The notes beneath the pieces are model-generated. The model worked only from the letters and a program-made list of their open reading frames with translations, was not told where the DNA came from and made no database searches. The translations under genes and the position numbers were made by a program. A stretch of DNA of 30,577 nucleotides, taken from the IMG/VR virus record IMGVR_UViG_3300036781_000128, positions 1 to 30,577 of that record; one strand, given 5' to 3'. Below, one piece after another: positions 2,360-30,577 of this stretch (the stretch's first letter is position 1; each line of letters begins with the position of its first letter). The stretch is from a virus.

Positions 2360-3255
2360 CCCGCATCGTCTTGTTCGTGTTCGCCGGCCGTGAAGCCAAT
2401 ATGCGCATCCAGCGGCCATTCCTCGACCGCCTGCTCGAGGAGCACCCCGAGGCCGAGCTACACCTCTGGGACTTGACGCGCACCCCCGAGGATGCCGAGT
2501 ACGTCCGCGCGCAGGCCTCGGACCGCATCGTGGTCCATACCCACCTCCACCCGGGTCACCCGATCGCCTGCAACGTGCCACCTGGGGCGAAGGGCCGCCG
2601 TGGCTGCCGGTGCTTCGCCCATCGCCCGCCCTACGAGCAGCCCTATCGCTGGTATGCCGAGCGTGACGAGTGCGCCGATGCGGTATTCGTGAAGCTCGAC
2701 GACGACGTGGTGTTCATGGAGACCACGGGGTTCGGCAACTTCATTGGCGCCCTTGAGGCACACCCCAGCGCGGTCATCTCGGCGAATGTCATCAACAACG
2801 CCGTGTGCGCCAAGCATGACCCGTGGTTGGCACCTGAGGTGCTCCGGCTGTTCGACGTCGGGGGCGTGGGCGACCCAGCAGCCGACAAGGCTTGGTGGTG
2901 GCTCCACGCTGACCCGCAGTTTGCCCGGGTGGGCCATGAGTGGTTCCTCGACCAGTGGCAGGACCTAACCCTGGGCACCTCCAAGAACCTGATGCGCTCC
3001 CGGCCTGGCGAGCGCCTAAGCATCAACTGCATCGCGTTCACCCACTCGACCATGAAGCGGCTGGCGGGCATGTTCGCTCGTGAGACGAAGCTGGGCGACG
3101 AGGGTGCTGTCGACAGGCTCCTCCCCCGCATCGCGCTGGGGTTCCGGGTGGCGCACCTGACGTTCGGGCCGCAGGACAAGGCGATGACACTGCGCGAGTT
3201 GGATGACCTGCGAGCGAGGTACGCGGCGATGGGCAAGGAGTACCTCGGTGCCTGA
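2356..3255 (+). CDS. Glycosyltransferase-like protein (GT-A, DDD motif)
   Basis: A 299-aa protein starting with GTG in a GTGA overlap. It opens with a beta-strand-like RIVLFVFAG. Residues 112-120 (VKLDDDVVF) form the hydrophobic-DxD-hydrophobic signature that binds the metal and nucleotide sugar in GT-A glycosyltransferases. A Cys/His cluster (about 72-89: CNVPPG..GCRCFAH) is unusual and could bind metal. It is the first of three adjacent transferase-like genes, which suggests sequential sugar addition to a phage structural protein or host envelope molecule. The acceptor and sugar cannot be told from sequence. Confidence 0.7.
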   Translation: MTRIVLFVFAGREANMRIQRPFLDRLLEEHPEAELHLWDLTRTPEDAEYVRAQASDRIVVHTHLHPGHPIACNVPPGAKGRRGCRCFAHRPPYEQPYRWYAERDECADAVFVKLDDDVVFMETTGFGNFIGALEAHPSAVISANVINNAVCAKHDPWLAPEVLRLFDVGGVGDPAADKAWWWLHADPQFARVGHEWFLDQWQDLTLGTSKNLMRSRPGERLSINCIAFTHSTMKRLAGMFARETKLGDEGAVDRLLPRIALGFRVAHLTFGPQDKAMTLRELDDLRARYAAMGKEYLGA

Positions 3256-4033
3256 GCGCTACCCCCTCGTTGTGCTGGATCATCTGGAGCGACGGACTGA
3301 TGACCCTGCAGCCCTGGCGGAGATCCACCGTCTGAGGTCGGCCCAAGTCCCGTCAGTCGCCGTCGTCATCCCCTTCCGGGACCGTGGCGCCGACCCACTC
3401 CGCAAGGCCAACCTCGAGACAGTCCTGCGGATGCATCAGGTCTATCCGGTGCATGTGGTTGACGACGGTCGCAGCGGGCTGGAGCAGTTCTCGCGCAGCG
3501 CGGCCTACAACCGCGGCGCCCGCCTGACTGACGCCGAGGTCATCATCTACCTCGAGTCCGACATGTTGGTGCCGTTCCCACAACTGCTTGCGGCAGTGCA
3601 GATGGCCGCAGAGACTCCCGGTCTGGTTGTCCCGTTCGACCTGTACGCCTACCTGTCCCCTGAGGACTCAGAGCGGGTCCGAAACGACGCCGACCCGGCC
3701 GGGTTTACACCGGAGAAGACGATCAGCAACGGTCGCAGCATTGGCGCTGTCAACGTCGTGTCACGCGAGACACTCGCCCTCGTGGGCGGCTACACCGAGC
3801 GCACCGAAGGCTCATGGTGGGACGACCGGATCATGCACCACGCGTTCGATGTGTGTGCTGGGCCGACTCGGTGGGTCAGTGGGCCGGGCTACCACCTGTT
3901 CCACCTGCCTGGCTTCCGTGGCGAGCACCTGAGCGACGAAGACCGGGCCGCGACGGCGCGGAACAAGGCGCTGTGGCAGAAGGTGCGGCGGCTGAGCGAC
4001 CCCGAGCGGGTCCGAGCCGCTCTGCACGGATGA
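3248..4033 (+). CDS. Family 2-like glycosyltransferase
   Basis: A 261-aa protein. The GTG at 3248, overlapping the previous gene by 8 bp, removes an implausible Arg-rich extension and is taken as the start. VAVVIPFRDRG at about 37-47 is the first strand of a GT2 fold, HVVDDG at 69-74 the second, and YLESDMLV at 101-108 supplies an ExD in place of DxD. Residues from about 175 (GAVNVVSRETLALVGGYTE) through the following WWDD resemble the C-terminal galactosyltransferase-type region that contacts the acceptor. It ends in an ATGA overlap with the next transferase-like gene. Likely role: adding a sugar to the same acceptor as its neighbours. Confidence 0.75.
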   Translation: MPERYPLVVLDHLERRTDDPAALAEIHRLRSAQVPSVAVVIPFRDRGADPLRKANLETVLRMHQVYPVHVVDDGRSGLEQFSRSAAYNRGARLTDAEVIIYLESDMLVPFPQLLAAVQMAAETPGLVVPFDLYAYLSPEDSERVRNDADPAGFTPEKTISNGRSIGAVNVVSRETLALVGGYTERTEGSWWDDRIMHHAFDVCAGPTRWVSGPGYHLFHLPGFRGEHLSDEDRAATARNKALWQKVRRLSDPERVRAALHG

Positions 4034-4647
4034 GCCTCCACGTCGCGGTTGTCGCACACGTCGCTCGCACCGAGCAGGCCAAGCGGCTGACCGACGAGCT
4101 CGGGGCTGAGCTGTTCATGGACGACGGCAGCATCGGCGAGTGGTTCAATCACCGCCGAGCGCTGGCCTGGGCTGCCACCCAGGACGGCCACGCGGTCATC
4201 GTGCAGGACGACGCGCTACCGGTTGCGGGATTCCTCGAGCACGCCACCCGCGCCGCCTCAGAACGGCCCGCTGACATGATCGGGCTGTACGTCGGTAGGC
4301 AGCGACCCAAGCGGGCAGCAGCCCAGCGGGCAGTACGGCAAGCTGACCGAACGGGAGCCTCGTGGCTGACGGCTCCCGGGCTGTGGTGGGGTGTCGCGAC
4401 CATCGTGCCGTGCGCTGCCATCCCAGCCCTGCTCGACGCCGCAGACGCCATGCACAGCAACTACGACATCAGGCTAGGACGGGCGTGGCTCGCAACCCAG
4501 CGCCGGCCAGTGACCTACACGTGGCCGTCGCTGGTCGACCACGCCGACAGCCCCAGCGTCATCGAGCGCAACCGCGAACGACCCAGCGGCCGAGTGGCCT
4601 GGCGGGTCGGCGTACCCAACTGGACCGGTGGGACGGTGGCGATGTGA
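4030..4647 (+). CDS. Glycosyltransferase-like protein (QDDA motif)
   Basis: A 205-aa protein starting with the ATG of an ATGA overlap. The core pattern is WFNHRRALAWA (about 38-48) followed by HAVIVQDDALPVAGF (54-68), as in small phage glycosyltransferases and LPS-type family 25 enzymes where E/QDDA binds the metal-nucleotide sugar. A later NYDIRLGRAWL segment fits the second half of that fold. It is the third transferase-like gene in the cluster. Classification rests on one motif and on context, so the exact family is uncertain. Confidence 0.6.
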   Translation: MSLHVAVVAHVARTEQAKRLTDELGAELFMDDGSIGEWFNHRRALAWAATQDGHAVIVQDDALPVAGFLEHATRAASERPADMIGLYVGRQRPKRAAAQRAVRQADRTGASWLTAPGLWWGVATIVPCAAIPALLDAADAMHSNYDIRLGRAWLATQRRPVTYTWPSLVDHADSPSVIERNRERPSGRVAWRVGVPNWTGGTVAM

Positions 4648-4648
4648 C

Positions 4649-5044
4649 ATGCGCAGAGTCGTCGCCATCTACGGGCCACCAGGTGCGGGCAAGTCCACAC
4701 ATGCAGCCACCCTCGGCCTGACGGTCTACGACCTCGACGAGTGGGCAGGTACACCAGCCACCTTCCGCTCGGCACTCAGCGCCCTCGCAACCGACCCCCA
4801 CGCACAGGCTGCGGTCATCAGGTGCGACCCGTACTCAGGTGCCGCCGCCCTGTGTGGTGCTACCGACCAGATGGTGCTGGCTACCCCGCTCGCCGAGTGT
4901 GTGCGCAGGATCAAGGCCAGGGGTAGGACCACGCCACCCATCAAGGTGCAGGTAGCAGCAGCACAGGCATGGTGGCGTGAGTACGAGCGGCATTGGCACG
5001 TACTGCCCGCCCTGCCCGGCGGTGCACGCAGGCGGGCGCTGTGA
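4649..5044 (+). CDS. P-loop kinase-like protein
   Basis: A 131-aa protein. The ATG at 4649 lies just after the previous TGA (4645-4647). A perfect Walker A motif GPPGAGKST spans residues 9-17, followed by a short domain with YDLDEW (about 29-34), which may provide the acidic residue of small nucleoside/sugar kinases. ECVRRIKARGR (about 87-97) resembles their lid arginines. At about 130 aa it is shorter than most kinases. Its place after the glycosyltransferase-like genes and before the HNH gene allows either a sugar/nucleotide-phosphorylation role or a DNA-related one. GTGA overlap with the next gene. Confidence 0.7.
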   Translation: MRRVVAIYGPPGAGKSTHAATLGLTVYDLDEWAGTPATFRSALSALATDPHAQAAVIRCDPYSGAAALCGATDQMVLATPLAECVRRIKARGRTTPPIKVQVAAAQAWWREYERHWHVLPALPGGARRRAL

Positions 5045-5328
5045 CCAAGGCCAAGTACTCAGGCGCCAGACACAGGGGCACGCGAGCCAAGCTCAAGCCC
5101 ACCGTGGACGCAGGGCAGGCCATGTGTGCCGAGACGCTGTGCCTCGAGCAGCGCGACGGACGCACACGCTGGATAGCACCGGGCACACCGTGGGACCTCG
5201 CTGAGACCGACGACGGGCTCGAGTTCAAAGGACCCGCTCACAGACGCTGCAACCGTGCCGATGGTGCGCGTAGGGGCAATCAGATGCGGGGCAAGCGCGG
5301 GGTGAGTGTGCGTCGGCGAGTGCTCTGA
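5041..5328 (+). CDS. HNH-type endonuclease, degenerate first His
   Basis: A 95-aa protein starting at the GTG of a GTGA overlap. It follows the small actinophage HNH pattern: Cys29-X4-Cys34, a PGTPWDLA segment (47-54), then GPAHRRCNRA (64-73) with His67, Cys70 and Asn71. Relatives I recall read DLAH or DLGH at the first HNH histidine; here residue 55 is Glu. It lies directly upstream of the terminase genes, where HNH proteins of cos phages cooperate with terminase in genome cutting. The His-to-Glu change may lower or abolish cleavage or alter the metal used. Confidence 0.75.
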   Translation: MTKAKYSGARHRGTRAKLKPTVDAGQAMCAETLCLEQRDGRTRWIAPGTPWDLAETDDGLEFKGPAHRRCNRADGARRGNQMRGKRGVSVRRRVL

Positions 5329-5427
5329 AAGTCGAGTAGGCCGGTCGTTTTTGGAGGGGCCTAACCCACTGCCGCCGGAGTGGCCCGGTCTATCTACAGC
5401 ATTTTCCACTTCCACCGAGGGGGCGTG
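5329..5427 (+). promoter_or_regulatory. Intergenic segment before the terminase genes
   Basis: A 99-bp gap breaks a run of overlapping genes. It holds a T5 run inside GC-rich DNA (about 5348-5352), a small CCACT/AGTGG inverted repeat and an AT-richer patch around TCTATCTACAGCATTTTCC. The small terminase RBS (GAGGGGG) is at its right end. In cos phages the packaging site often lies just here, and a late promoter would also fit, but I cannot define cohesive ends or clear -35/-10 boxes. Confidence 0.3.
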
Positions 5428-5745
5428 ATGGCCGTGCGCAAGACCCCCCTTCGTTCCGTCGCCCCGGACGAGAAGCCCGAGCCCGAAGCCAAGGTTGAAA
5501 GGCAGACGGTGGCTGAGGCTGCCGCCACCGGAGACCACCGCGCGTTGCTGGTCTCCATGCGTGAGCGGATCGCGCAGACGGTGAGCAACCCCGACTGTCC
5601 GCCGCGTGACCTCGCCGCCCTAACCCGTCGACTCCAGGACATCGCGAAGGAGATCGACGCGATCGATCTCCGCGCTCGGCAGGAGTCCAAGGAGGACGGC
5701 GATGACGAAGCGCCCGACGAGAGCTGGGACGAGGAAGCTCTCTGA
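5428..5745 (+). CDS. Terminase small subunit
   Basis: A 105-aa protein. The ATG at 5428 is chosen because GAGGGGG lies just upstream; the earlier ATG at 5380 has no such site. The central motif MRERIAQTV...CPPRDLAALTRRLQ followed by IAKEIDAID is characteristic of actinophage small terminases and is likely the DNA-recognition and oligomerisation helices. The C-terminus is very acidic. It recognises the packaging site and hands DNA to the large subunit, whose ATG lies inside this gene's last 44 bp. Confidence 0.85.
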   Translation: MAVRKTPLRSVAPDEKPEPEAKVERQTVAEAAATGDHRALLVSMRERIAQTVSNPDCPPRDLAALTRRLQDIAKEIDAIDLRARQESKEDGDDEAPDESWDEEAL

Positions 5746-7201
5746 GGTTGCCCGCCACATCGTCAAGCCGAGCGGCATTGTCGCCACGGGTTGGCCGAAG
5801 GTCGAGAAGACTGCTCGCGAGAAGCTCGGGATCGCGTTCGATGAGTGGCAGTGTGGTGCTGGCCGACTGACTCTGGCCCGCCGCGCTGACGGCAAGTTGG
5901 CCGCGATGGTCGGCGGCGTCGGGATGTCGCTGCCTCGTCAGGTTGGGAAGACCTACCTACTCGCCGGTCTACTCTTCGCGCTCTGTGTCGACAACCCGGG
6001 CCTGCTGGTCATTTGGTCGGCGCACCACTCGAAGACGCACAACGAGACGTTCTTGGCGATGCAGGGTTTCGCGAAGAGGCTCAAGGTCGCGCCTTACGTC
6101 GAGCAGGTGTACACCGGCTCGGGCGACGAGGCTGTCGTGTTCGTCAACGGGTCCCGCATCCTGTTCGGCGCCCGGGAACGTGGCTTCGGTCGAGGCATTC
6201 CCGGTGTTGACGTGCTGGTGATGGACGAGGCTCAGATCCTCTCCGACAAGGCGCTGGAGAACATGCTGGCGACTCTCAACACGTCGCAGCTCGGGTTGGC
6301 GCTCTATATCGGCACCCCTCCGCGACCGGAGGACAACTCGGAGGCGTTCACGCGCATCCGGACCGAGGCGCTGTCGGGCGATTCGGATGATCTGGTCTGG
6401 ATCGAGTGTGGGGCTGATCCCGACGCCGATCCCCACGACGAGAAGCAGTGGGCCATGGCGAATCCGTCGTTCCCTCATCGCACTCCCCGCGAGTCCATCC
6501 TGCGGCTGCTTCGGCGGCTCAAGGAGGACGGCTTCCGCCATGAGGGCCTCGGCATCTGGGATGAGGTTGGCGCCGGCATCCTCCCGGGATGGTCCGGCCT
6601 GTTCCTCGACGTCGATGACGACGAATTCGAGTGGGAGCTTCCACAGCCGTCGGCGGTTGGCATCGCGGTTGGCATAGGTGGTTCTCACGGCTCCATCGCC
6701 TCGGCTGACGCCTGGCCCGACGGCGTGCTGATCGGCGAGCCTTCGATCGACACCCTCGATGGGCCAACCGATAGTCAGACGGACCTCACTGGCGCAGTCA
6801 ATCTCTCGGCGGTCGACAGGCGATCGGGCACTGACTGGATCCCGGCCGAGGCGAAGCGCATCCAAGACCTGTACGGCTGTGACGTGGTGATCGACGAGAA
6901 GTGTCCGGACGGCACGCTCATCGAGCGGCTGGAACAGGCCGGGGTGTATGTGACCGTCATGGCGCTGACCGACGTCGTGCAGGGCTGCTCGGAGCTGGTG
7001 AACCGGGTCCGCGAGGGTCGCGTCACCCACCAGCGCACCACCGAGCTCGACGACGCGATCGAGGTTGCCATCTGGCGCTCGGTAGGCGATGGCCGCCAGG
7101 TCTTCGGCCGCCAGAAGTCATCCGGCCCGATCGACATGCTCGAGGCCGCCACTGCCGCCCTATGGGGCGCACTGAACCCGCAGACACCTGCGATCTACTA
7201 G
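5702..7201 (+). CDS. Terminase large subunit
   Basis: A 499-aa packaging motor, the usual length. The ATG at 5702 has a strong GGAGG 7 bp upstream. The Walker A variant SLPRQVGKT is at 76-84 and Walker B VLVMDEAQ at 171-178, with IGTPPRP near 203-209 as motif III. The C-terminal nuclease domain keeps VVIDEKCPDG (395-404) and ELDDAI (448-453). Where related terminases have the first catalytic Asp (AVDV or SVD), this one reads GIAVGIGGSHGSI (320-332), so that Asp is Gly. The ATPase should translocate DNA; the nuclease may be weak or use another residue. Portal and protease genes follow directly. Confidence 0.93.
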   Translation: MTKRPTRAGTRKLSEVARHIVKPSGIVATGWPKVEKTAREKLGIAFDEWQCGAGRLTLARRADGKLAAMVGGVGMSLPRQVGKTYLLAGLLFALCVDNPGLLVIWSAHHSKTHNETFLAMQGFAKRLKVAPYVEQVYTGSGDEAVVFVNGSRILFGARERGFGRGIPGVDVLVMDEAQILSDKALENMLATLNTSQLGLALYIGTPPRPEDNSEAFTRIRTEALSGDSDDLVWIECGADPDADPHDEKQWAMANPSFPHRTPRESILRLLRRLKEDGFRHEGLGIWDEVGAGILPGWSGLFLDVDDDEFEWELPQPSAVGIAVGIGGSHGSIASADAWPDGVLIGEPSIDTLDGPTDSQTDLTGAVNLSAVDRRSGTDWIPAEAKRIQDLYGCDVVIDEKCPDGTLIERLEQAGVYVTVMALTDVVQGCSELVNRVREGRVTHQRTTELDDAIEVAIWRSVGDGRQVFGRQKSSGPIDMLEAATAALWGALNPQTPAIY

Positions 7202-26907: not shown

Positions 26908-27129
26908 GTGAGGAAGTACCTGCCCAGCAAGCGCACCGCCAAGGCCATCGCGGGTGCCGCTGTCGGAGCTGCCGCGTACCTCGTCGGCATCCTCCACGGC
27001 GACGAGACGCTCGGCGACGTCACCACCGTCGGATGGCTCGGACTCGTCGTGTTCCTCGGCGGCGGCTACGGCATCACCTACGCCGTGCCGAACGCCGACG
27101 CCACGCCCGCGACGCCGCCGCAGGAGTAG
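26908..27129 (+). CDS. Holin-like protein
   Basis: A 73-aa protein from GTG 26908, with AAAGGAG upstream. KYLPSKRTAKAIAGAAVGAAA gives a basic start and first TM segment (about 10-25), and TVGWLGLVVFLGGGYGITYAVPN the second (about 41-62). It resembles actinophage holins. It is the last + strand gene before a strong terminator and would release or localise the endolysin. Whether this or an upstream membrane protein is the real holin is open. Confidence 0.65.
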   Translation: MRKYLPSKRTAKAIAGAAVGAAAYLVGILHGDETLGDVTTVGWLGLVVFLGGGYGITYAVPNADATPATPPQE

Positions 27130-27175
27130 CCTCAGGAGCGCGATGCCCTTCCCGGTTCGCACTGGCTCCAGCACA

Positions 27176-27211
27176 AAGCCCCGCTCATCGCTTCGGCGGT
27201 GGGCGGGGCTT
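27176..27211 (+). terminator. Bidirectional terminator with UUCG loop
   Basis: AAGCCCCGC (27176-27184) pairs with GCGGGGCTT (27203-27211). The inner bases extend the stem through CA/TG and CGC/GCG, with two G-U wobbles, to a TTCG tetraloop (27192-27195). The 16-bp stem separates the convergent + strand lysis genes and - strand cargo genes, so it can stop transcription from both sides. Confidence 0.88.
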
Positions 27212-27221
27212 CTTGCTGTGC

Positions 27222-27572
27222 TCAGGGACGCCACTCCTCGCGGTAGTCCGGGTGGTCGGCGTAGACCGCGGCGAGCGCCTCGACGACCGCCGGGTTGTCG
27301 TCCTTCGCGGACATTTGCTCCCGGCTCCGACACATCCCCCACTCGCCCTCGATCCGCTCGTGGTCTGCCCACGCGGCCTCGATTGCTAACCGCTTGGCCT
27401 CGCACTCGGCCAGCACGCGATCCGATTCGCTCATGAGGTAATCGGCGGTCGTGGTGTGTCCTTGGCTGCGCATCGCTTCGGCAAGATCCCGCAGGGCGCG
27501 CGCCCTACCGTCCTCGTCAACGGCGATGCGTGCCAGCAGAAAGTCAGTGAGCGTGAGCGTGGCGGTGGTCAT
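27222..27572 (-). CDS. DUF6221-like protein
   Basis: A 116-aa protein; ATG 27572 follows GGGAGGA on the - strand. The helical start LTDFLLARIAVDEDGRARALRD and the ending YADHPDYREEWRP are typical of the DUF6221 family found in actinobacteria and their prophages. It overlaps the upstream HTH gene by 4 bp (ATGA), so it is the third gene of the operon. Function unknown. It could be an accessory of the toxin-antitoxin-like pair or separate cargo. Confidence 0.7.
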   Translation of the reverse strand: MTTATLTLTDFLLARIAVDEDGRARALRDLAEAMRSQGHTTTADYLMSESDRVLAECEAKRLAIEAAWADHERIEGEWGMCRSREQMSAKDDNPAVVEALAAVYADHPDYREEWRP

Positions 27573-27826
27573 GGCTGTCCTCCCTTGCCGAACCGCTGAA
27601 AGGCGTTCTGCTTGCTCGTGCCCAGCGCGGCCCCGATGACCACCCAGGTCTCCCCCGCCTCCCGGGCAGCCTCGACCGCGGCGCGCAGCTCTCCCTCGGC
27701 GTCGTCGATGCCCTGCTGTGCCGCGACGATGCGGCGGAAGTGCCGCGCGTCCTTCGCCCGATGGGTCGCCGGGTCGACCTGCTCGAGCCCGGCGTCGTCG
27801 TGAGTGGTCTTGGTCTTGTTCGTCAT
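27569..27826 (-). CDS. HTH protein, antitoxin candidate
   Basis: An 85-aa protein; ATG 27826 is preferred, 8 bp after GGAGG, over ATG 27832 that lies too close. Acidic helices (30-58) are followed by ETWVVIGAALGTSKQNAFQRF (59-79), a clear helix-turn-helix of the WxxIGxALGxSxQxAxQRF type. It is cotranscribed behind the BrnT-like gene and is the likely repressor of the operator at 28095-28140. It could neutralise the toxin, though it is not a classical BrnA. Confidence 0.72.
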   Translation of the reverse strand: MTNKTKTTHDDAGLEQVDPATHRAKDARHFRRIVAAQQGIDDAEGELRAAVEAAREAGETWVVIGAALGTSKQNAFQRFGKGGQP

Positions 27827-27855
27827 GTTCATCACCTCCAGGGTCCCCCGCCACA

Positions 27856-28092
27856 TCAGCGGAGGAAGTCGTAGAACTTCGGGCGGAGCACGTCCGCGTG
27901 GATGATGCGGTCCGGGTCTGCAGCGGGGACCGCGACCAGCTCCAGCAGGCGGCCGGTGGTGTCCGGGCCGATGACGAGGAGTCGGTCTTCGCCGTCGTAC
28001 TCGAACTCGACCAGCCGCAGGGCGTTGGTCCACGCGTGCTCGATGTCCGTGTCGCTGACACCGTGCTTGCGGGCCGACTCCCTGATCTGCAT
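27856..28092 (-). CDS. BrnT-like toxin candidate
   Basis: A 78-aa protein; ATG 28092. It has KHGV (9-12), DRLLVIG (36-42), GRLLELVAV (47-55) and [13 protein letters not shown] (62-74), the same order as BrnT (KHGV, R..LAIG, grlLvV, RIISAR), a RelE-fold ribonuclease. The usual BrnT ending differs. No SD precedes the start, but a strong promoter places the transcription start at the ATG, so it should be leaderless. It leads the toxin-like/HTH/DUF6221 operon. Toxicity is inferred from this resemblance only. Confidence 0.65.
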
Positions 28093-28140
28093 GAGTAAAT
28101 CATAGGTTTACCATCAGGGATTGTCAACTACCGATTTACC
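28093..28140 (-). promoter_or_regulatory. Consensus promoter with operator repeats
   Basis: On the - strand TTGACA (28122-28127) and TATGAT (28099-28104) are separated by exactly 17 bp. The start point would be about 28092, the A of the ATG. GTAAAYC-type elements occur three times: 28095-28101 (over the -10), 28105-28112 (inverted, in the spacer) and 28133-28140 (inverted, upstream of the -35). Such repeats are expected for an autorepressing HTH protein. Confidence 0.85.
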
Positions 28141-28348
28141 CAACTGCGGGCCGGACCAGATGCGCCGGCACCCACGACTGCCTGACCGTCACCTCGTCCC
28201 CGTTGCCAGTCGAGTGCGCCGAGGCCCACATCACGTAGGCCTCCCACTCGCCCCGGTCGGTCTGACGCCACGCCAGCAGGACGCCAGGCGCTGGGTAGGA
28301 CCAGACGCCAGTGACGTCCACGTGGACATGGAAGGGGGGTGGGCGCAT
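28136..28348 (-). CDS. Conserved small protein, 70 aa
   Basis: ATG 28348 on the - strand; the stop overlaps the next operon's operator. The sequence is beta-rich with Trp and Pro (VHVDVTGVWSYPAPGVLLAW, QSWVPAHLVRPA), resembling small actinobacterial proteins with a WxxPxxLLxW pattern of unknown role. No SD; a TAACCT -10-like box six bases upstream suggests a leaderless message. A LexA-like box overlaps that promoter. It may be induced by DNA damage. Confidence 0.65.
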   Translation of the reverse strand: MRPPPFHVHVDVTGVWSYPAPGVLLAWRQTDRGEWEAYVMWASAHSTGNGDEVTVRQSWVPAHLVRPAVG

Positions 28349-28354
28349 ATGGGG

Positions 28355-28374
28355 AGGTTAGAACAGGTGTTCGA
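28355..28374 (-). promoter_or_regulatory. LexA/SOS-like box over a promoter
   Basis: On the - strand the bases TCGAACACCTGTTCTA (28359-28374) match the actinobacterial/Bacillus SOS pattern CGAAC-N4-GTTC with one arm mismatch at the end. It overlaps TAACCT (28355-28360), the putative -10 of the 70-aa gene. LexA bound here would block transcription until DNA damage. Other readings, such as chance, are less likely given the position. Confidence 0.6.
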
Positions 28375-28379
28375 AGGGG

Positions 28380-28874
28380 CTACAAGCCCTCGAGTATCTC
28401 TAGTTGCGGGTCCCCATTCGGCTCCCTGACGGAGAGACCAGCGACTTGCGTGCCCACCTTGAGTAGAGGGCCGTCGTAGGTGTGGAGCTCGTCGCAGCCG
28501 CTCGTCTTCGCGAGCGCCAGGTGCAAGGCGTCCGGACCCTTCAATTGAAAGCCCACGGCGAACTCCATCGCTAAGGTGCTCGCTCGCTGCGTGATGTCGA
28601 CGAACCGGAACTGGGTCGCCAGGAAGTAATCACGCGCTTGGTCAAGACGCTTGGCATGCTCGAGCGAGGGTGGACCCTGTGGCGCGCGAAGGTTGGGAGC
28701 GCCGACCGCCTCCGCCACGGTCAATGCAGACAAGTGCCCCTGGGAGATGCGCTGCTCAGCCGCTCGAACGGCCGCCGACGCAGGTTCCAAGCGCCCCTCT
28801 TCCTCGAGGAAGACCGCAAGGAACACGCAGGCGTCGAAGTAGACCTTCAGCGCCGGGCTCGCCTTACTCGCCAC
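28380..28874 (-). CDS. PIN-domain nuclease (VapC-like)
   Basis: A 164-aa protein; GTG 28874 overlaps the partner gene by 11 bp. The PIN acidic residues are in place: VYFDACVF (Asp14), LTVAEAVG (Glu55), GPDALHLA (Asp115) and HTYDGPLLK (Asp134). Such proteins are Mg-dependent ribonucleases, often toxins. The usual partner is a small VapB; here it is a 248-aa protein, so a non-classical pair. Both are encoded on the - strand near the attachment site, where temperate phages carry cargo. Confidence 0.85.
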   Translation of the reverse strand: MASKASPALKVYFDACVFLAVFLEEEGRLEPASAAVRAAEQRISQGHLSALTVAEAVGAPNLRAPQGPPSLEHAKRLDQARDYFLATQFRFVDITQRASTLAMEFAVGFQLKGPDALHLALAKTSGCDELHTYDGPLLKVGTQVAGLSVREPNGDPQLEILEGL

Positions 28875-29610
28875 GCGCAGCCTGCCATTCGCCCAAGGTG
28901 AACCACGGCTCTCCGCTCTCGTCGGCGAAGATCCCAGACACCTCGGAGATGGACACCAGTCGCCTGTCAGGAAGCACCTCGAAGTCCTCCGCCTTCAACT
29001 CGATGGCGGATCCGAGCGCATCCCGACTCACCAGACCCCACATCTCGACTCTCCGGCCGATGGCCTCGTCGCGGATGCGGTCCGAGAGCGCCGCCCTATA
29101 GCTGACGGTCACGCTCGAATCGTCGTCCAGCTTCATCTTGACCTCGCGTCGACCGTGCTCGTTCCATCGGTCGACGACGCCGCGGGCGGACCCGTAGCTG
29201 ACCGTCGCGGCCCCGAGTGCACGGTCCGCGTGAGTGACGATCTCCGGCGTGACGACCAGGCCGCCAGCGTCCAGACCCGTGAACGTCATGCCTGTGGCGC
29301 CGCCGCGACCCACGCGCTGACCGATGCTGCGGACGCGCTCGACCATGCGTCTCGTCCAGGTCGCCGGCACCTCTGCGCGCTCCGTGAGGGCAGCGAGGCC
29401 ATCTCGCAGCACGACGGCTACGGGAGACTCGTTCGGCGCCGCTACCGCGAAGATCGCCGACCCGATCGCCAGGTTATCGACCGTCCACGCCTGCTGCCCG
29501 GCATCGGCGACGACAGAGGCGTCATTGAGCAGCGTCAGCAGATCATCCAGCGAGTCACGCAGGGTCGCAGCCGAGATCGCCTCGCCGCCGATATTCAGCC
29601 CGATAGCCAC
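28864..29610 (-). CDS. Partner of the PIN nuclease, 248 aa
   Basis: GTG 29610 follows GGGAGGAGG on the - strand. The N-terminus (LDDLLTLLNDASVVAD, then AWTVDNLAIGSAIFAV) looks like an alpha/beta domain. The middle has ATVSYGSARGVVDRWNEHG and KMKLDDDSSVTVSY, with GRRVEMWGLVSRD, an OB-like beta pattern. It ends FTLGEWQAARGE. I recall similar proteins beside PIN genes in other bacteria, but no accepted function. As it is translated first, it is a likely antitoxin or a sensor that controls the PIN enzyme. Confidence 0.7.
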   Translation of the reverse strand: MAIGLNIGGEAISAATLRDSLDDLLTLLNDASVVADAGQQAWTVDNLAIGSAIFAVAAPNESPVAVVLRDGLAALTERAEVPATWTRRMVERVRSIGQRVGRGGATGMTFTGLDAGGLVVTPEIVTHADRALGAATVSYGSARGVVDRWNEHGRREVKMKLDDDSSVTVSYRAALSDRIRDEAIGRRVEMWGLVSRDALGSAIELKAEDFEVLPDRRLVSISEVSGIFADESGEPWFTLGEWQAARGE

Positions 29611-29772
29611 CGCCCAGCCTCCTCCCGGTCAGTGTGGCAGATCGTCCACGCGACCACCGACAACCGGCGGCAACCGATAGGCGATCTCCCCCCTCACCCC
29701 GCCCGGTACAGCTTGCGCACCGTGGCGGCGTGGGGGGGTTGGTGTGGAAGCAAAGGTCTCCCTGATTGACCG

Positions 29773-29787
29773 GGGTACGCCGTACCC
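29773..29787. repeat. 15-bp palindrome, arm-site candidate
   Basis: GGGTACG-C-CGTACCC is a perfect inverted repeat with a single central base, about 95 bp from the att core. Its right half starts the CGTACCCTG repeat seen again at 29968. It may bind integrase, excisionase or a regulator. Confidence 0.5.
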
Positions 29788-29823
29788 TGCCGGGGTTCAT
29801 CTGGTTCCACAACTTGCCGTTTC

Positions 29824-29852
29824 ATGCAAGCGACTGCACACACCGTTTGCAT
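29824..29852. repeat. Inverted repeat near the att core
   Basis: ATGCAAGCG (29824-29832) and CGTTTGCAT (29844-29852) are inverted copies with one mismatch, 11 bp apart. It lies 29 bp before the core. It could be an arm-type or regulator site. Confidence 0.4.
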
Positions 29853-29880
29853 TTCCGCAGGTCAAAGGGCAAAGCGTGAG

Positions 29881-29906
29881 GGGTTCAAGTCCCGTCACTC
29901 ACCCCA
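29881..29906 (+). other. attP core matching a tRNA-His 3' end
   Basis: The 26 bases from 29881 to 29906 form a T-loop TTCAAGT with its closing GGG/CCC, a CACTCAC acceptor strand, discriminator C and CCA. C73, which pairs with G-1, is the hallmark of tRNA-His. The bases before (GCGTGAG) do not continue a tRNA, so only the 3' end is present. A phage integrating there would restore the tRNA. The integrase follows 76 bp downstream. Confidence 0.8.
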
Positions 29907-29908
29907 AT

Positions 29909-29953
29909 GAAACCGCCAGGTCGCCGCGAATAATCGGTGAGCCTGGCGGTTTC
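29909..29953 (+). terminator. Hairpin between att core and integrase
   Basis: GAAACCGCCAGG (29909-29920) and CCTGGCGGTTTC (29942-29953) form a perfect 12-bp stem with a 21-nt loop. It would act as a terminator for the tRNA-His gene after integration, or insulate the integrase from upstream transcription. Confidence 0.7.
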
Positions 29954-29982
29954 GCGTTTACCCACTGCGTACCCTGAGGGCC

Positions 29983-30577
29983 ATGCGGACACCCAAGAAA
30001 CACGTGGCCGAGGACGGCTCGACGACATGGCGCGTCCGCTACCGGCTCGGCAGTACCGAGACCTCGGAGACCTTCCCGCGTGAGACCGACGCCGACACGT
30101 TCGCGCGCATTCTGGGCCGAGGGCGTGACGCCGACGTGGCCGATGCGCTCGCTTGGCTGGCCAGCAAGAAGGTCGAGCGCGAGATGGCGACATTCGGCCA
30201 GTGGTTCGAGACATGGGTGTCACAGCTCACCGGCATCACACCTCGCACCCGAGACGACTACCGCGCCATGCGGCGCCGCTACCTGACCGACCTGGACTTA
30301 CTGCCGCTGACCCTGGTGTCCCGAGCTCACGTCGCCGCGATCGTCAACCGACTGGAGGCCGACGGTAAGGCGCCCAAGACCATCAAGAACGCGGTCAACA
30401 TGCTATCCACGGTCATGGCAACCGCCGTCGACGACGGCCTGATACCGCGCAACCCCGTGCGCCGGGTCCGCCTACCTCGCCCACATCCCGACGAAGACGC
30501 CGTGCTGTTCCTTACCCACGAAGAGGCGGCGCTCGTCATCGCCCACACCGCCGAGCGCTACCGGCCGCTGGTGACGT
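29983..30577 (+). CDS. int: Tyrosine integrase, N-terminal part (truncated by the window)
   Basis: ATG 29983 opens a frame that runs off the end: 198 residues seen. Residues 13-45 (STTWRVRYRLGSTETSETF) are an AP2-like arm-binding domain, and 70-160 (TFGQWFETWVSQLTG, TPRTRDDYRAM, KTIKNAVNMLSTVMATAVDDGLIPRNP) the core-binding SAM-like domain of phage tyrosine recombinases. The catalytic R...HxxR...Y part lies beyond the window, with only its first helix (LTHEEAALVIAH) visible. Being beside the core it is the likely integrase for that site. Confidence 0.9.
   Translation, partial: MRTPKKHVAEDGSTTWRVRYRLGSTETSETFPRETDADTFARILGRGRDADVADALAWLASKKVEREMATFGQWFETWVSQLTGITPRTRDDYRAMRRRYLTDLDLLPLTLVSRAHVAAIVNRLEADGKAPKTIKNAVNMLSTVMATAVDDGLIPRNPVRRVRLPRPHPDEDAVLFLTHEEAALVIAHTAERYRPLVT

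Follow-up and report, generated by a model that had tools for sequence, protein, structure and literature searches.

A PIN-domain gene and its large, predicted OB-fold partner recur together across bacterial phyla and mobile elements as a putative toxin-antitoxin-like module

In the virus record analyzed here (IMG/VR, 30,577 bases, the whole of which is referred to below as the window), a gene for a PIN-domain protein directly follows and overlaps a gene for a 248-aa protein, and the same two genes were found in the same order in several bacterial phyla and on other mobile elements, with divergences that are correlated between the two. The reading that we favor, and consider probable with considerable reserve, is that they form a single toxin-antitoxin (TA)-like module made of a PIN RNase and a large OB-fold inhibitor.

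Few kinds of bacterial toxin are as abundant as the PIN (VapC) toxins. The PIN gene of the window, predicted to encode a VapC-like nuclease of 164 aa, occupies positions 28380 to 28874 (minus strand), and its product matched PF01850 with an E value of 5.5e-13 (50 bits, above the curated cutoff of 23.6). The four acidic residues that the original prediction had read in this domain were all present (D14, E55, D115, and D134). These catalytic acids were invariant in an alignment of 10 PIN sequences, while in a larger one of 18, which takes in PIN ORFs interrupted close to the end, the first three remained invariant and D134 did not. The 11-bp overlap between the two genes was confirmed by the ORF coordinates and the sequence (28864 to 28874, minus strand), with the GTG start of the PIN gene located within the end of the partner gene. 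Ahead of this GTG, there is a weak AGG at a distance of 6 bases and nothing stronger, and the overlap suggests translational coupling. Measured from the earliest possible PIN start, 28 of 31 pairs showed an overlap of the PIN ORF with the partner gene. Because homologs of both window ORFs stand in the same order elsewhere, neither of them is a chance reading frame.

The partner gene (28864 to 29610, minus strand), delimited by its ORF and supported by held-out family profiles and an AlphaFold2 model, also starts with GTG. Seven nucleotides before this codon lies the Shine-Dalgarno sequence GGGAGGAGG (29626 to 29618 as read on the minus strand), so that the strong ribosome-binding site attributed to this gene was indeed there; a scan of positions 27100 to 30000 for promoters of the sigma-70 type detected none upstream of 29610 on the minus strand. 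The 248-aa protein had no domain or helix-turn-helix (HTH) match in Pfam, PADLOC, or PHROGs, and NCBIfam returned two subthreshold matches (best E value of 0.083, 12 bits versus a required 328). Thus, its description as a large protein with no obvious HTH, absent from curated libraries, held for the four collections searched. Exact-peptide scans yielded no confirmed relative of either window protein in viral_contigs, nor of the partner in genome_contigs, and actinobacterial genomes were covered by peptide-pattern scans alone.

We measured the recurrence of the pair from each of its two genes. A two-sequence PIN alignment, used to scan genome_contigs, led to 10 loci, in Ramlibacter, Omnitrophota, Methylobacterium (two), Alteraurantiacibacter, Sphingobium, Xanthobacteraceae, Rhodothermales (two), and Rhodothermaceae. 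Immediately upstream and on the same strand, all 10 had an ORF of 246 to 312 residues, and all 10 of these ORFs matched the partner profile, nine of them having been used to build it. When the plasmid and IMG/VR matches were added, the partner was directly upstream in 12 of 13 cases (10/10 genome loci, 1/2 on plasmids, and 1/1 in IMG/VR). This tally is restricted to search matches, leaving out an additional PIN ORF within the flank of locus L012 (1.5e-16), which is without a partner of the OB-fold family. The sole miss was Priestia, which has a different short gene upstream.

In the converse search, whole genomes were scanned with the partner profile, irrespective of the PIN gene. It matched all 10 genomes of the PIN loci but few others: 5 of 398 in Pseudomonadota (one being the centre genome and one the weak match L036 discussed below), 1 of 14 in the phylum to which the Omnitrophota genome belongs (this one being the centre genome), and 2 of 247 in that of the Rhodothermaceae genome (the centre genome included). 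By order, the values were 5 of 296 (order of G004), 7 of 397 (order of G003), and 2 of 399 (order of G001). A PIN ORF was directly downstream in 17 of the 20 distinct places that were new to the PIN search, with the PIN match split over two ORFs in three of the 17 (L027, L034, and L037). The HMM check of whether PIN neighbors recur beside relatives of the 248-aa protein, on which the original prediction depended, therefore did not speak against it. The centre genomes and G006, G038, G278, and G379 appeared in more than one search, and their places were counted once; near-identical assemblies (L026/L027 and L009/L011) were counted separately, so the number of independent events is smaller than these counts. 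The three exceptions comprised the fragment L029 and the broken gene L030/L032 (two pieces, counted once), both without a PIN gene, and L036. This last, a 598-aa open frame matched at an E value of 1.6e-4, is probably false, since a profile of 21 partners misses it and one of 10 partners reaches it with only 0.0019, and it was nevertheless kept in the denominator. For comparison, 16 control regions, with 255 ORFs of 100 aa or more, gave no match to the PIN or the partner profile. Altogether, 30 family ORFs ranged from 212 to 336 aa (from the earliest start), and the partner family spans at least three phyla, as judged by record title or centre genome. One contig, L014, which also contains L025, has two partner-PIN pairs in a face-to-face arrangement (3079 to 5810), their PIN ORFs sharing 80 bp at the 3' ends.

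Given that the family-search profiles (the main one and those of the later order-level scans) include the window protein, and match its own gene by construction, its membership was assessed with profiles from which it was excluded. Direct comparison was uninformative: BLASTP of the window protein against the Methylobacterium partner found nothing, and hhalign with thin alignments gave E values of 0.0011 (probability 20.5%) and 0.0049 (7.2%). A held-out profile of 21 partners placed it first among the 280 window ORFs (E value of 3.5e-13 with the search space set to 400, the next ORF at 1.9), with a colinear match over residues 19 to 229, and a profile of seven short-type partners matched it at 3e-10. 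Since a profile containing the window protein had been the first to detect 11 of these 21 partners, a stricter one-round profile was built from the 10 partners reached through the PIN search. The window protein was again first of 280, with an E value of 0.013 (9.0 bits; next ORF, 2.2). The same strict profile recovered 9 of the 11 later members at 1.7e-11 or below, the nine being those with printed scores (L027, L028, L031, L033, L034, L035, L037, L038, and L039, through longer copies), and therefore the 21-member set is independent of the window protein. With the two-round profile and the PIN neighbor as basis, the window protein is, by sequence, a divergent member of the family: identity of the window copies to their relatives is 15 to 22% for the partner and 21 to 30% for PIN, and a Cys that 20 of 21 relatives share is missing from the window partner, which also differs at several other common positions.

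These values bear on whether the arrangement is mere coincidence or decay, i.e., a VapC-like gene that has lost its own antitoxin and lies beside an unrelated phage gene. Such an accident would agree with the modest E value of the strict one-round profile and with the tblastn searches, in which the partner had no close relative among phages and plasmids and the PIN protein had no match among phages and two remote ones on plasmids. The same arrangement in many loci, together with the first rank of the window partner with both the 21-partner and the 10-partner held-out profiles and its score with 21 members, makes it very improbable.

The distance matrices of partner and PIN proteins were strongly correlated over 18 pairs (r = 0.875, with 0 of 9,999 permutations as high). 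Shared descent contributes to this value; it therefore shows joint travel of the two genes, not contact between their products. A regularly kept pair would also fit an obligate two-subunit ribonuclease or RNA-processing complex, in which the OB-fold partner would be a substrate-binding adaptor guiding the PIN nuclease to certain RNAs, with no toxin-antidote relation, and the OB fold is common for nucleic acid binding. We regard this alternative as rather unlikely, because sporadic occurrence (as in Pseudomonadota) and carriage by phages and a plasmid fit an accessory mobile module better.

The OB-like character of the partner, proposed in the original prediction, was supported by modeling. AlphaFold2 models were built on 10 or 11 sequences; that of the window partner (10 sequences) had a mean pLDDT of 72.8 and combined an alpha/beta region at the N terminus with a C-terminal region showing the order of elements of an OB fold (E136-150, E156-161, E166-171, H173-182, E187-196, and E202-212), that is, in the model, a five-stranded barrel with a helix between strands 3 and 4. 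Among the 50 VIA-align matches listed for residues 136 to 216 (28963 to 29205, minus strand), Z scores ranged from 8.9 to 10.4 over 71 to 84 residues with rmsd values of 2.5 to 4.5, the top one having a Z score of 10.4 over 79 residues (rmsd 3.7), and the matches listed were mainly OB proteins: SSB, PriB, anticodon domains of aminoacyl-tRNA synthetases, and RPA. Foldseek was weaker on this region (best E value of 8.2e-4, the one match at 0.001 or below), and the Pfam OB family PF01336 was weakly matched by 1 of 20 family members (0.0025). Thus, the partner shares a predicted OB fold with SSB, PriB, and the LysRS/AspRS anticodon-binding domains but differs from them in that it matches no sequence family. 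The N-terminal alpha/beta domain (residues 1 to 116; 29263 to 29610, minus strand) appeared weakly ferredoxin-like; with residues 1 to 135 modeled alone, pLDDT was 74.4, and the best structural matches of the domain were a VIA-align Z score of 5.2 (79 residues, rmsd 3.1), below the informative level of the tool, and a Foldseek E value of 0.075. Foldseek against the viral models of BFVD listed as long matches A0A8S5T657, A0A8S5QA00 (DUF6575), and Q6NE06 of Leptospira phage LE1. No member of the family alignment matched DUF6575 in Pfam at an E value of 1 or below, and for that reason, we claim no link between the two families.

Across the family, the partners are predicted to end in a C-terminal OB fold that is usually followed by a conserved tail. 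Long relatives mostly finish with a tail of the FTGGLS..EYL..LR type, and short relatives stop sooner. In the window partner, which ends with PWFTLGEWQAARGE, the counterpart of the long tail is the segment comprising residues 217 to 248 (28867 to 28962, minus strand). In VapB and FitA antitoxins, a C-terminal segment reaches the PIN active site. By analogy, and from the tail comparison, we infer a similar role for the partner tail, which would block PIN; antitoxins that obstruct the active site, and the effect of VapB5 on the metal site of VapC5, are described in the available passages of a review (PMC4803016).

The order of the genes, with an antitoxin-like gene first and provided with a strong ribosome-binding site, an overlapping nuclease gene second, a sporadic spread over several phyla, and carriage by phages and a plasmid, amounts to a type II TA-like arrangement. 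The module that we infer would work as follows. The downstream gene would encode a metal-dependent RNase whose activity would be toxic to the cell. The upstream gene would be translated first and, given its strong Shine-Dalgarno sequence, probably in excess, and the OB-fold protein would bind the PIN protein during translation and keep it inactive, most likely through its C-terminal tail, placed in the acidic active site or close to it. Nucleic acid would probably be bound as well by the OB fold, whether operator DNA, the mRNA of the module itself, or a signal. For a temperate phage, the use of such a module could lie in lysogen stability or the exclusion of other phages.

The likeness to VapBC systems is clear in that a PIN RNase gene with its acidic catalytic residues lies directly downstream of the partner gene, overlapping or abutting it (here by 11 bp). 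The difference lies in the partner, which has 248 aa and a predicted OB fold instead of being a small RHH, AbrB, Phd, or HTH antitoxin. A small antitoxin with a known DNA-binding domain was sought in the window partner and 19 relatives and was not found, and therefore we have not filed the pair as VapBC. Among these same 20 proteins, no known antitoxin domain was detected with Pfam, NCBIfam, and PADLOC, they had no Pfam or NCBIfam family in common, and PADLOC gave two weak families (best E value of 0.011, one family with two members).

In the available passages of Makarova et al. 2009 (PMC2701414), the PIN antitoxins described are mostly small DNA-binding proteins. The PIN-associated antitoxin families named there are COG2442/DUF433 (DUF433 having ca. 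70 to 80 aa), COG2880, COG1753, UPF0175, and a truncated MerR. They were predicted by the same logic, as recurring neighbors of PIN genes, yet where a fold is given it is of a DNA-binding type (3-helical bundle, AbrB-like, RHH, or MerR HTH), and the term “ob-fold” has no occurrence in the main text of that article. The partner family is absent from its list of PIN antitoxins and from the new-antitoxin table of PMC6504116, whose groups are summarized from 24,377 sequences, as far as the available text of both goes. Likewise, the accessible parts of PMC2701414, PMC6504116, PMC6078989, PMC10440598, PMC12076904, and PMC4803016 contain no description of a PIN gene with an OB-fold partner. Literature searches, within the papers available, turned up no account of the family. 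It thus looks absent from the catalogues searched, while the PIN TA theme itself is already known.

Several mobile elements carry the pair. The best plasmid relative of the PIN protein is encoded on Methylobacterium oryzae plasmid pMOC1 (32% identity over 76% of the query), where it is annotated as “type II toxin-antitoxin system VapC family toxin”; its gene overlaps by 17 bp an upstream 288-aa “hypothetical” gene, which is the partner. In the temperate Pseudomonas phage vB_PaeS_AV001 (PQ349086), genes 054 (278 aa) and 055 (177 aa) also overlap by 11 bp and adjoin 053, annotated as a repressor. They are annotated as “hypothetical protein” and “repressor protein,” respectively, but Pfam identifies 055 as PIN (2.1e-8; L040, 3659 to 4192), and the family profiles matched both (partner, 1.9e-13; PIN, 2.1e-14). 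This partner had first been met at an E value of 0.3, not significant alone, and the claim is carried by later profiles, including the 10-partner profile free of the window protein (1.8e-13). In the available passages of PMC12076904, AV001 is classed as lysogenic, and three of its genes (7, 55, and 59) are named as lysogeny-related matches. The second of these is presumably the PIN gene 055, in which case a PIN gene annotated as a repressor appears, from those passages, to have been used as evidence of lysogeny. In the IMG/VR contig L041 (1594 to 7615), the pair lies between a gene for a NOV_C-domain protein and genes for a DUF4435 protein and an ATPase, ca. 0.6 kb from the DUF4435 gene (6.3e-19) and the ATPase gene, which resemble AriB/AriA of PARIS. 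Of the neighbor proteins scanned with PADLOC, a single one matched AriA and a single one AriB, presumably the ATPase and DUF4435 proteins of L041.

This neighborhood, the presence of the pair in two phages (window and AV001), and the resemblance of the predicted OB fold to SSB, PriB, and anticodon-binding domains are the arguments for a sensor-effector anti-phage module (abortive infection or superinfection exclusion), in which the OB-fold protein would recognize either a phage protein or single-stranded nucleic acid of foreign origin and, in response, release or activate the PIN RNase. This proposal overlaps with the TA-like module and places the function in sensing. We consider it unlikely, although less so than the other alternatives, since neither window protein matched a defense model (PADLOC-DB 2.0.0) and the neighbors showed no clear excess of PADLOC matches over control regions. 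At an E value of 1e-15 or below, 129 neighbor proteins gave 37 families versus 13 from 125 control proteins, counts in which several models can match one protein; among the 25 neighbor families listed, many are single-member methyltransferase models related to one another, which may represent the same few proteins. The original prediction had left the choice between a TA and a defense module. The recurrence of the pair and the large OB-like partner with no recognized HTH support the module, and because the neighbor scans did not clearly separate pair loci from controls, “TA-like” is better supported than “defense,” a role that we treat as possible.

As for the virus itself, the major capsid protein of the window shares 67% identity with its counterpart in Mycobacterium phage prophiGD91-2, which on sequence similarity makes an actinobacterial host likely. 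An integrase ORF (PF22022, 3e-6) starts at 29983 and runs off the end of the window, and between it and the gene pair, a stretch resembling a tRNA 3' end was read by eye at ca. 29880 to 29906. The claim that the pair adjoins attP is made plausible by this stretch and goes no further, since ARAGORN found no tRNA. Scans of viral_contigs found no relatives of the integrase fragment and of a 277-aa protein of the phage, and a scan with short-type partners gave no match. The same cargo region holds a second TA-like module, made of a 78-aa BrnT-like protein (27856 to 28092, minus strand; PF04365 at 7.1e-7, 29.9 bits, under the cutoff of 34.5) followed by an 86-aa ORF (27569 to 27829, minus strand) that is HTH-like by eye only, with a sigma-70 promoter match of 11/12 ahead of the BrnT-like gene (28127 to 28099, minus strand). 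Further along, at 27222 to 27572 (minus strand), there is a gene for a DUF6221 family protein (PF19730, 1.6e-16), and the 70-aa ORF between the PIN and BrnT-like genes (28139 to 28348, minus strand) had no match in Pfam or NCBIfam.

If the TA-like reading is true, a large OB-fold partner would add an antitoxin architecture to the PIN theme, one that is sparse but extends over several phyla, and the module would explain hypothetical and misannotated gene pairs, such as the one in AV001 with its PIN gene called a repressor. A bolder extension, which we put forward as speculation with a small chance of being right, is that these OB-fold proteins are a new class of phylum-crossing regulators of PIN toxins that couple single-stranded nucleic acid binding to RNase release and would provide temperate phages with a self-contained sensing kill switch against competitors. 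The TA-like reading would also mean that, within a compact system, a toxin may be controlled by a nucleic-acid-binding fold.
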